The position numbers and the translations under genes are program-made. From Antedon mediterranea (lineage: Eukaryota; Echinodermata; Crinoidea; Comatulida; Antedonidae): 64,000 nt of DNA. The stretch is taken from assembly GCF_964355755.1 (NCBI RefSeq), contig NC_092673.1, positions 21,581,001 through 21,645,000 of the forward strand, written 5' to 3'. Below are positions 200 to 31,872 of this stretch, piece after piece. Under the pieces are notes generated by a model. It searched no databases. It saw nothing but the letters and a program-made list of their open reading frames with translations, and was not told the origin of the DNA. The first letter of the stretch is position 1. Each line of letters begins with the position of its first letter.

Positions 200-3100
200 T
201 CACCTACGTAATATATTTATCAAAGACTCAGAATCGGGACTTTCTGCCACACCGGCGACGACATAACCAATCTTCTCCATTGCTACCTTTGTTGTTGGAC
301 CAATCGCAATCATCTGTACAACAATATATATAAAAATAACACTTATTATTTATTTAAGAAGGAACGAAAACCATGTTATATTAGTAAATCCATTAAATAT
401 AAAAATACAAATTAAATAGATAGTTTGCTAACAAAAAGATATAGGATGTCATAGGATTTAAGTTGAAGCAACCAGAGATGACTGATCATGTTTATTTATA
501 ACTTTAGCCAATGAATAGAACCCAGTGATACAATACATCCAAGTTTCTTTCCATTCACGTTCACAAATCGTACAATTGAACAAGTGTCTCCATAGAATCT
601 TGTAACCATCAATAAACAATAACTACTCTGTTTTATACGTTTCCCATTTTAAAAGCGATTGTTATATAAGTGTACACCTCCTTTATTGGGGGAATTAACC
701 TTTCACATAAGAATAAAACCTAAATAAAGGTATTGTACTTCAAACCTGTGTAGGGAGGAAAACGGGTAACTTGCTTCCTAAATTGATATAAGTGAGCTAC
801 TGTATTGTAAATGACATTTTAGACAATACACGTCACAAACTATGACATATGAACATATTGGTAACAGAACATACCAGACCTGAATTTGCACTTAAAATAG
901 ATTTAGGAGATTAAGATTAACTATGCTATAATTTGCACTTGTGGTAAAAATGGTTGTATAGAATAGAATTATAATTATAATGATTGACATGTCACACTAC
1001 ACGTCATGTATGACAATAACTAAAGCAAACCCAACCCAATGTAGGTTCACACAGAAGGTTTTCACACAGAGGATGGCTTCACACTGAGGGTACAGTAGGT
1101 TCACACAGAGGGTGGTTTCACACTGAGGGTGGTTTCACATTGAGGGTGGTTTCACACTGAGGGTGCAGTAGGTTCCCACAGAGGGTGGTTTCACACAGAG
1201 ACGTGGTTTCACACTGAGGGTGGTTTCACACTGAGGGTACAGAAGGTTCACACAGAAGGTGGTTCCAAACAGAGCTGGTTTTGTATTCTAACAAATGATT
1301 TGAACCAAGGATCTTTCAGGGAAAAGGAAAGTTATTATAAACCTACACTAATATTCCATACTTTTAAAATCTTGTTTTGTACGTATAAATATATCATAAG
1401 ATTTAAGATCAGAGAAAATTACATAAAACTTGGCAACCAAAAGAAAACATGGACGAATAAAGAGCCAACATAATCTTCTACTGGAGGATTAGAAATTAAT
1501 TTATTTTTCAATTTTCTCTTTCCGAAGTTGAATGCATTTAAATATTGCGTGACTAGGATAATATTAAAATGCCACTTGAGAAATAATTAGCAAATACCGA
1601 TTAGGAAACTGATACAATAGACAGTAAGTATTTAAAAAAACACTTTGCGTGGCAAGTTTTTATACCTAAAGAAATTGATTTCTTTCCCCATACTATTGCT
1701 ATAATCTGCATCATCATGGCACGACTTCTTACAATCTTTGGCATAATGCTAAATCTGTAGGGCAGTTGTGAGAAGAGTTCAATGCTGGTCAAAATGTAAT
1801 GTTTTAAATGGTCTAACGTATGTTATTCTATAGGTATTGCACATACATTCCTTATAACTTTCTACCTGAAATGAATGGTTTACCAAGTTAGCCAGGGACA
1901 GCTTGAAGATTTGAAAAATGTCCCTTTTTTCTGAAATGTCCTTTTCAAACTAAAGACCAGCAGCGGAAGTGAGGGTTATTAGGCATGTAGTCTAGCTCAA
2001 TTTATTTCCTTTTGTGTTATGCACCCACCAACCCCCTTGTAAGAATACTGGTTGTGTGTACTGAGTATAAATGTATCTAGGATTTGATGCTACAGTACAA
2101 TGCAATCAAGATTAATGAATAAATAAAAGGACACAAACTTGTAGCCAGTGGGTTCAAATAGAAAACCCTTGTTTCTAAGAAATAATAAAGTACAAGGTAT
2201 AGCAACTGTTAAAGTAATTATTACTACACTATACAGGTTCGTCAATCAGCACCCTAAAAGGGTGAATGAACAATGTTTACAATCTGTGGCCCTTTATGAA
2301 CTATTACAACCTCTTCTCTCCCCTCCCCTTCACTTTACAGATCCCGACAGCAGATTGAAATAGTTGAATATTACATGATGATGAGGTATACAACTTAAGT
2401 CTACAGCCGATAGTTTTCTTATTACTATAGCAATCCTAGATTCCAGTTTCAAGAGAAACATTTACAATTTTGAAAAAAACATTATCTAATTGATATTAAA
2501 TATTTATTTGACTTAAGTGATACTCATTTATAGACAGGGCATACCTATGCGGTGGATGGATACCAAATTAGCTTTGACAGAATTTTTAAAGAAAGTTAAA
2601 AGATCAATTGGCAAACCTAAATTATATGAAAGATAAACAAAGAACTAAAAAGCCACATATATAATACATCGTTAAAAGTTACCAACAGACCACTGAGAGT
2701 ACAATTAGCGTACACAATATAAAGACAAGAATTCTATTGCAACTCAATACATTATAAAAAGCATTTCATCTACAGAGAATGAATATAGGTATAGTTGTAA
2801 CTTATATTATGCACTGAAAAAAATGTTGTCAATTCAAAATTAGAAATTAACAACAGTACTGTAATTATAAATACAAATGTACTATCTTTCTAAAATATCA
2901 AATCCGCATTTTGTTAGTCGGGCAATGCCCAGCTAAAGGAGTGGACTCCATGTGTTATATAAGTCATTATAATACCTATATGTAACTGTTTAAATATGTT
3001 TTAAAATTCAAGGTGTAGTAGATTCATGGAATTTAGATGGAATATTCATGTTTCTTGAAAAATGTTTGGAATTTTTTATAACCTTGTAATTATTATTTTT

Positions 3101-31000: not shown

Positions 31001-31872
31001 GCCATCTGCTTGATAGCTGGAATCTTGGCAACAGCGGAGGTAAATGAAGAACTGCGAGAACTGTTCCGATCACCATCTCTTCTGTCTTTCCTGTAAAAAA
31101 ACAAATAAAATAAAGTAAATTTTTGTCATCATTGATGTCAACATTTATTATTTAAATATAAATGTTAGTACTAAATTAACAGCAAGAGAGAAATGAAATT
31201 ATCCGCATATGTGCATGCACATGCAATCCGATCATTAAACAAATTAGTGGGATTAGACTGCCTGGCATAGGGTGGGCCTAGAAAGAGTTTAACAATAAAT
31301 AGTAATTTAGATATTTCTAGTAATAGGTCTAGGCCTAGTAGTACCTAGGCTAGGTAGTACTTTAGCTAGATAGCTAGTAATATAGTTGTAGTACTAGGCC
31401 TAGTAGTACTGTATGTAGGCCTAGTAGTACTGTACGTACGTAGGCCTAGTAGTAACTTAGTAGTAGTACTGTACCGTACTGTACGTAGGCCTCTAGGCCG
31501 CCTAGTAAAAATTAAATTTAAGTGGTGAAATAAATAACCCAATCCCAACATTTAAAATATGAATAAAATACTTTAAATTTAGCCTATCATAAGAATATAT
31601 ATATTTTGTCCATATCTAATCCATCCATTTTCACCGATTAAGCCTAGGCCTAGCTATGTTAGGATCATGATGCCTGCACTGCACTTGGCTAGCAAGCCCA
31701 GTAGAGTAGGGTCTGGCTGGAAGTGGACCGTGGTGTAGGACATGCTAGCTAGCCAGCCTAGAAAAGCACTTGATAGAAAGCTCTAACTATTTCTTTTGAC
31801 TTACCGATCATCACTCGAATGCTTTTTTGAGGATGCGGAATCTCCAATATCTAAACGATGTCGTTTTGACAT
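25014..31872 (-). CDS. DHX15: DEAH-box RNA helicase DHX15/Prp43, 12 exons, complete
   Basis: ATP-dependent RNA helicase that dismantles the intron-lariat spliceosome and acts in ribosome maturation, activated by G-patch partners. Coding exons in order: 31805-31872, 30835-31090, 30469-30668, 29632-29833, 29090-29266, 28379-28633, 27983-28241, 27254-27445, 26723-26845, 25915-26105, 25531-25700, 25014-25140. All phases join, giving 739 aa against 795 in human. The N-terminus [11 protein letters not shown] is the DHX15 signature; the RS-like leader is shorter than in human. Motif [10 protein letters not shown] is at 99-107, TQPRRVAA in exon 3, DEAH at 201-204, SAT at 233-235, STNIAETS at 361-368 and QRAGRAGR at 409-416. 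HA2/ratchet and OB-fold regions follow, ending [17 protein letters not shown]. All catalytic residues are intact, unlike the divergent vertebrate paralogue DHX32, which occupies this position next to BCCIP. Tail-to-tail with BCCIP, 1.15 kb between stops. Confidence 0.96.
26236..26375. mobile_element. Short TIR element, CAGTGGC ends, in DHX15 intron 9
   Basis: Begins CAGTGGCATAATTGC and ends GCGTTACGCCACTG, a terminal inverted repeat. Flanked by GTATG-like sequence on both sides (TGTATG before, TTGTATG after). Core GGGGCCACAGAGCATGAGCA is shared with the copies near 4545 and 5945. Confidence 0.7.
27652..27980. repeat. Minisatellite, 21-bp unit, touching a DHX15 splice donor
   Basis: About 15 units of TAGTACTGCAGTATTACAGT(A), slightly degenerate at 27735-27770. 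On the minus strand each unit carries GTAATACTG. The array ends 2-3 bases from the exon 7 boundary (27983), so the real donor GTAATA lies in unit-like sequence. It occupies most of DHX15 intron 7 (27446-27982). Long frames on either strand are repeat shadows. Confidence 0.95.
28655..28925 (-). mobile_element. MITE copy, TTTAAAGATGTATTGTCC family, truncated
   Basis: Starts TTTAAAGATGTATTGTCC and continues CATGAAAAATGAAGATTAAA, the inverse of the right end of the copy at 56162-56513; further right, TTGGTCAAAGTGAATAACTA matches its internal part inverted. The far terminal repeat is not found. DHX15 intron 5. Confidence 0.7.
29905..30293 (-). mobile_element. tRNA-derived SINE carrying a nested 100-bp element
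   Basis: Contains GCTAGTACACCGGGGTAAG, CTCGTCTCAAAAGATGTACT and the tRNA-like head (AAACCCTTGCC..ACCACTCGACCACTCACTCA). It is interrupted at 30051-30150 by a separate element. Left limit uncertain. DHX15 intron 3 (29834-30468). Confidence 0.75.
30051..30150. mobile_element. 100-bp MITE, CAGTG/CACTG ends, 5-bp duplication TGAAA
   Basis: Starts CAGTGGCGGATCTAG and ends GGGGGTGTCACTG. TGAAA is present directly before (30046-30050) and after (30151-30155), a perfect 5-bp target duplication. Removing it restores the SINE sequence. Same family as 35479-35592. Confidence 0.85.
30310..30441 (-). mobile_element. Short MITE copy, AAGCTCTGTCTACAC family
   Basis: Reads CTACACTATCAAACTAGTTT, GTGATGTGCCCAAATATGGT, then ATGACATCATCATGTCCATA and an end ACAAGGCTTAA. 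One internal unit only. DHX15 intron 3, just right of the SINE and 30 bp from exon 3. Confidence 0.8.
31310..31505. repeat. TAGGCCTAGTAGTACTGTAC-type palindromic repeat tract
   Basis: Short units of AGGCCTAGTAGTACTGTA recur irregularly with GTACGTAC runs, each half palindromic. It lies in DHX15 intron 1. A similar tract is at 34060-34165 in intron 1 of the CCDC172-like gene. Confidence 0.75.

Follow-up and report, generated by a model that had tools for sequence, protein, structure and literature searches.

DHX32 is a subject of cancer research, and its classification varies between Prp43-like helicase and Dhr2. In both mouse and human, UROS and BCCIP lie head-to-head, with BCCIP and a third gene, DDX32/DHX32, tail-to-tail (PMC3178617); human DHX32, at 10q26, has 12 exons, encodes 743 aa and is conserved with Prp43/DHX15 (PMC2642774), and human DHX15 itself is at 4p15 (PMC5908128). 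The stretch of DNA analysed here carries the same three-gene arrangement with an intact DHX15 in third place. The window, by which we mean the whole 64-kb stretch (C4:21,581,001-21,645,000; G+C ~33%), lies on the 36.2-Mb contig C4; the genome that we searched comprises 354 Mb in 18 contigs, and this one invertebrate-type genome is the basis of the finding.

The UROS, BCCIP and DHX15 genes of the window

Exon-by-exon models bore out three complete genes in the order UROS(-), BCCIP(+), DEAH helicase(-), as an earlier, sequence-only reading had described them, and the human order UROS(-), BCCIP(+), DHX32(-) that the same reading had given is the published one (PMC3178617). Because DHX32 is third in that published order, the window arrangement is the vertebrate one with DHX15 in DHX32's place: the window helicase has the same position and orientation as vertebrate DHX32, tail-to-tail with BCCIP and with UROS beyond it.

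UROS (uroporphyrinogen-III synthase; 200..18732, minus strand) has seven collinear coding exons, at approximately 18732-18670, 14929-14741, 14154-13999, 12806-12729, 11256-11170, 8638-8531 and 319-200; its product has a HEM4 domain and matched the human UROS structure 1jr2 with an E value of 1.4e-30. The UROS Pfam model found no match anywhere in the genome even though the UROS exons are plainly present in the window, probably because these exons are short. UROS intron 1 also holds an open frame (17795-18082, minus strand) resembling the C terminus of a reverse transcriptase from a non-LTR retrotransposon, with no Pfam match. BCCIP (20381..23858, plus strand) has seven coding exons, at 20381-20518, 21034-21108, 21742-21822, 22077-22175, 22311-22498, 22634-22814 and 23688-23858, with GT-AG junctions, a BCCIP domain and a stop at 23858; it matched the human BCCIP structure 8exe with an E value of 3.8e-45. 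UROS and BCCIP are head-to-head, with 1.6 kb between their start codons, and BCCIP and DHX15 are tail-to-tail, with 1.2 kb between their stop codons.

The third gene, DHX15, encodes a Prp43-type DEAH helicase (25014..31872, minus strand). Its 12 coding exons, at 31872-31805, 31090-30835, 30668-30469, 29833-29632, 29266-29090, 28633-28379, 28241-27983, 27445-27254, 26845-26723, 26105-25915, 25700-25531 and 25140-25014, are joined by GT-AG at every intron into a single 739-aa frame with an ATG start and one terminal stop. A partial tandem duplicate of the intron 4/exon 5 boundary (29231-29306) lies at 29444-29519 on the minus strand, with 93% identity over 76 nt; it includes the acceptor site without a proper exon 5 continuation, and has the look of a spare exon in decay.

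The protein is a member of the DHX15/Prp43 family, and an otherwise ordinary one. It aligns with human DHX15 over its full length, at 83.9% identity over 682 residues, and scored 1334 bits against human DHX15, 1190 against worm ddx-15 and 972 against yeast Prp43; DEAH families outside DHX15/Prp43, among them DHX8, DHX16, DHX38 and DHX35, reached at most 732 bits. The sequence-only reading had seen a DHX15 N-terminus and a full set of catalytic motifs, and we found both: the protein begins MSKRHRLD, which is DHX15-type and shared with human DHX15, and its eight helicase motifs (I, Ia, Ib, II, III, IV, V and VI) are all intact and identical to those of human DHX15. Our tree likewise placed it with human DHX15, worm ddx-15 and Prp43. 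It should therefore, as far as can be predicted from sequence, use ATP, under G-patch activation, to release intron-lariat spliceosomes and to remodel pre-ribosomes. Nothing in the protein is notable; what distinguishes the gene from other DHX15/Prp43 genes is its genomic address alone, which is that of vertebrate DHX32.

Copy number of DHX15 and the relationship of DHX32

A whole-genome search with the window helicase recovered its own gene at 82-100% identity per exon and everything else at 68% or less, in other DEAH families; this search found no second DHX15-grade gene in the genome. Two loci on C1 gave the strongest single matches to the helicase; both were rejected as DHX15 or DHX32, being unbroken frames of DEAH11/12 type with an IBR domain in the one checked. 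These two DEAH helicase genes, at C1:38166021-38167994 (L042:1706-7420, minus strand) and C1:5594595-5596694 (L043), have unbroken frames of 1904 and 1971 codons, respectively; the first combines helicase and OB domains with an IBR domain and a DEAH11-type RRM/KH; in an animal, this is an architecture resembling plant DEAH11/12.

For DHX32, which has no solved chain, we used a provisional sequence that we take to represent the human protein and refer to as the DHX32 query. As a control, a yeast Prp43 sequence of the same provisional kind aligned end to end with its solved chain, and the 743-aa length of the DHX32 query agrees with that reported (PMC2642774). A second genome search with this query returned the same loci, the window gene being the best multi-exon locus. 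Thirteen of the other DEAH loci from the first search were fetched and each compared with human DHX15 and the DHX32 query; none of the 13 was DHX32-like, all matching DHX15 better. A second DEAH helicase grouping with DHX32 elsewhere in the genome, which the sequence-only reading had held to be contrary to its account, was thus found in neither genome search nor among the 13 loci.

Among solved DEAH helicases, DHX15 was the closest to the DHX32 query, which aligned with it end to end at 42% identity and scored 581 bits against human DHX15, 515 against worm ddx-15, 514 against yeast Prp43 and 402 against DHX8. The window helicase was ruled out as DHX32 itself, being 84% identical to DHX15 versus ~41% to the DHX32 query and having motifs that are all canonical. 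In the DHX32 query, motifs I, Ia, II, III, V and VI are decayed, with GDAKCGKS in motif I, DDIH in motif II, NSS in motif III and a motif VI without the QRAGRAGR pattern; the window gene shows none of them. Provided that the query sequence is right, DHX32 probably does not work as an ATP-driven helicase, as loss of these motifs would be expected to entail loss of activity.

To place the DHX32 query we built a tree that also included human and window DHX15, worm ddx-15, Prp43 from yeast and from the 9l5r chain, and six further DEAH genes, these last taken from the window's genome as rough exon joins. The DHX32 query joined the Prp43 clade with support of 92/99, the animal DHX15s with 83/92 and, weakly, the pair of human and window DHX15 with 70/61; constraining human DHX15 and DHX32 together came at no cost (p 0.47). 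The DHX32 branch is very long (2.24), so the tree favours a late origin of DHX32 without proving it.

One alternative is that DHX32 is the orthologue of yeast Dhr2, as some reviews give it, unrelated to the local DHX15 and next to BCCIP by coincidence. We consider this very improbable, since the DHX32 query matches DHX15 along its whole length and far above every other solved DEAH family, and since it falls within the Prp43 clade; moreover, in the final two of its species columns a published helicase table has DHX32 beside DHX15 in the Prp43 row, where worm and fly have a single gene each, and the table pairs Dhr2 with DHX33 (PMC12511879).

An older split would have DHX15 and DHX32 arise as tandem duplicates next to BCCIP before vertebrates, with invertebrates then losing DHX32 and vertebrates losing DHX15 from 10q or moving it. 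The tree leaves some room for this: placing DHX32 outside animal DHX15 gave an AU p of 0.080, and outside animals plus fungi, that is, all Prp43s, 0.081, so neither was rejected, and at 15 alignment columns the DHX32 query carries the fungal state against all three animal DHX15s. However, 24 columns unite it with all animal DHX15s against fungi and a further 10 with human and window DHX15 only; several losses would be required; and no DHX32-like trace was found at the locus or in the genome. Such an older tandem pair is accordingly an unlikely source, if a less remote one than Dhr2.

A DHX15 ancestor beside BCCIP is probably the simplest source of DHX32, taking the query sequence as correct, because the sole DHX15 of this genome is at this place, no DHX32-like locus was found and DHX32 is nearest to DHX15. 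The descent that the sequence-only reading had proposed is thus probably right, and is supported by the single DHX15, the lack of a DHX32-like locus and the closeness in score; the tree by itself, with an AU p of ~0.08 for an early split, falls short of proof.

Neighbouring genes and chromosome-scale linkage

Next after the block lies a CCDC172-like coiled-coil gene (33915..36864, plus strand), with a first exon beginning MSLSELF, a last conserved exon at 36670-36783 and an end that may reach 37729. It matched a provisional human CCDC172 sequence at 50% identity over 38 aa and at 38% over 29 aa, the latter match being weak alone; we take human CCDC172 to be at 10q25. Further along is a gene for a DOK1/2/3-type docking protein (41056..43399, minus strand) with PH and IRS-type PTB domains, whose closest matches among solved structures are the PTB domains of DOK2 and DOK1. 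The human DOK1/2/3 family presumably lies at 2p13, 8p21 and 5q35, and so belongs to the 4p/5q/8p-2p/10q paralogon.

Minisatellite arrays were seen at 7112-7811 (16 bases), 11329-11765 (23), 27655-27982 (21), 36935-37339 (44/90) and 41912-42121 (15). Three of these are intronic, in UROS or DHX15; the 15-base one falls within the DOK coding frame, giving ~14 repeats of the five-residue unit GQAHV.

To ask which duplication was involved, we used four marker families whose human positions we take to be 4p16, 8p11 and 10q26 for TACC, 5q33, 8p21 and 10q26 for EBF, 4p16, 2p13 and 10q25 for adducin (ADD), and 5q35, 8p21 and 10q24 for nucleoplasmin (NPM). In the genome search all four fell on C4, the chromosome of the window, each at one place, and the adducin and nucleoplasmin loci were checked at sequence level. 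As C4 makes up 10.2% of the genome, the chance of four out of four is ~1e-4, for markers chosen by these presumed human positions. A search for LIM_bind (LDB) as a further marker gave no match, but neither did its control.

Human 4p16, 5q35, 2p/8p and 10q26 constitute one ancient conserved segment, which underwent two doublings at the vertebrate base, the first of them separating 4/5 from 8/10 (PMC2655272). DHX15 and DHX32 both lie in this established paralogon, at 4p15 and 10q26, the 4p band being approximate (4p15 versus 4p16), and the single DHX15 of the genome searched is on the chromosome that carries the paralogon markers. This marker linkage on C4 indicates that the window DHX15 sits on the pre-duplication version of the vertebrate chromosomes bearing DHX15 and DHX32. 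With TACC, EBF, adducin, nucleoplasmin and a DOK-type gene, C4 resembles the human 4p16/5q35/2p-8p/10q26 (MetaHox/FGFR) paralogon; it differs in being one pre-duplication chromosome, where vertebrates have four or five regions. From the single-copy marker families and the single DHX15 we infer that this genome is an outgroup to the vertebrate duplications.

A different chromosome, C7, carries ATE1 (2.12 Mb), SEPSECS (15.45 Mb) and RBPJ (22.35 Mb). In human, we take SEPSECS and RBPJ to be the neighbours of DHX15 at 4p15, and ATE1 to be at 10q26. The immediate surroundings of human DHX15 are thus not descended from the window neighbourhood, since SEPSECS and RBPJ are on C7. This second ancestral chromosome also seems to be common to human 4p15 and 10q26; the mix of C4 and C7 genes in both regions fits a proto-chromosome fused before duplication, though it is not proof of one.

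These observations bear on whether DHX15 was instead singly copied or moved to chromosome 4 from its place by BCCIP, through local transposition or retroposition and with no part played by the genome duplications, leaving DHX32 as the original. The origin of SEPSECS and RBPJ from another ancestral chromosome would suit such an event, but ATE1, a C7 gene that we take to be at 10q26, shows the mixture to be common to both regions. Likewise, in vertebrates the order by BCCIP has been reported for DHX32 only (PMC3178617), but the 4p target and 10q26 are partners within a known paralogon (PMC2655272), a coincidence that a random move would rarely produce. We therefore regard a single move as improbable, while giving it more weight than the older tandem pair.

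Origin and meaning of DHX32

The account that we favour, with considerable confidence, is that an ancestral UROS-BCCIP-DHX15 block was duplicated with its chromosome in the vertebrate ancestor, DHX32 being the copy that stayed and DHX15 the copy on 4p15. The ancestral neighbourhood would have been UROS(-) BCCIP(+) DHX15(-), with CCDC172 and a DOK1/2/3-type gene nearby, on a chromosome matching the 4p/5q/8p-2p/10q paralogon. After duplication of the whole chromosome, one DHX15 copy would have remained by UROS and BCCIP and lost its ATPase/helicase motifs, becoming DHX32 at 10q26; the other would have retained its function, lost its UROS and BCCIP neighbours and become DHX15 at 4p15. That the duplication was a genome duplication, and that motif decay came after it, we infer from this comparison; DHX15 and DHX32 are most likely ohnologs, each on its own duplicated chromosome.

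The sequence-only reading had called the chromosome 4 DHX15 a moved or duplicated copy. Duplication stands; a move is unneeded, because both positions are accounted for if the genome was duplicated and the two copies then lost different neighbours, 4p and 10q26 being sister parts of one paralogon (PMC2655272) whose markers lie on C4. In the open-access literature, which most subscription journals lie outside, we found no statement of a DHX15-DHX32 ohnolog pair or of BCCIP-DHX15 synteny; ohnolog databases may list the pair.

We lean, somewhat less firmly, towards describing DHX32 as a pseudohelicase of vertebrates: a twin of DHX15, made by the genome duplication, that kept the ancestral UROS-BCCIP address and lost its ATPase motifs. 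It may have been retained because it is tied into the regulatory block of BCCIP and UROS, or because it partners DHX15 cofactors without catalysis. An intact DHX15 at the DHX32 address in an outgroup gives DHX32 a clear origin and argues against its assignment to Dhr2. For a well-known vertebrate paralogon it provides a further anchor from before the duplications, and it makes the motif loss of DHX32 a derived, testable state.
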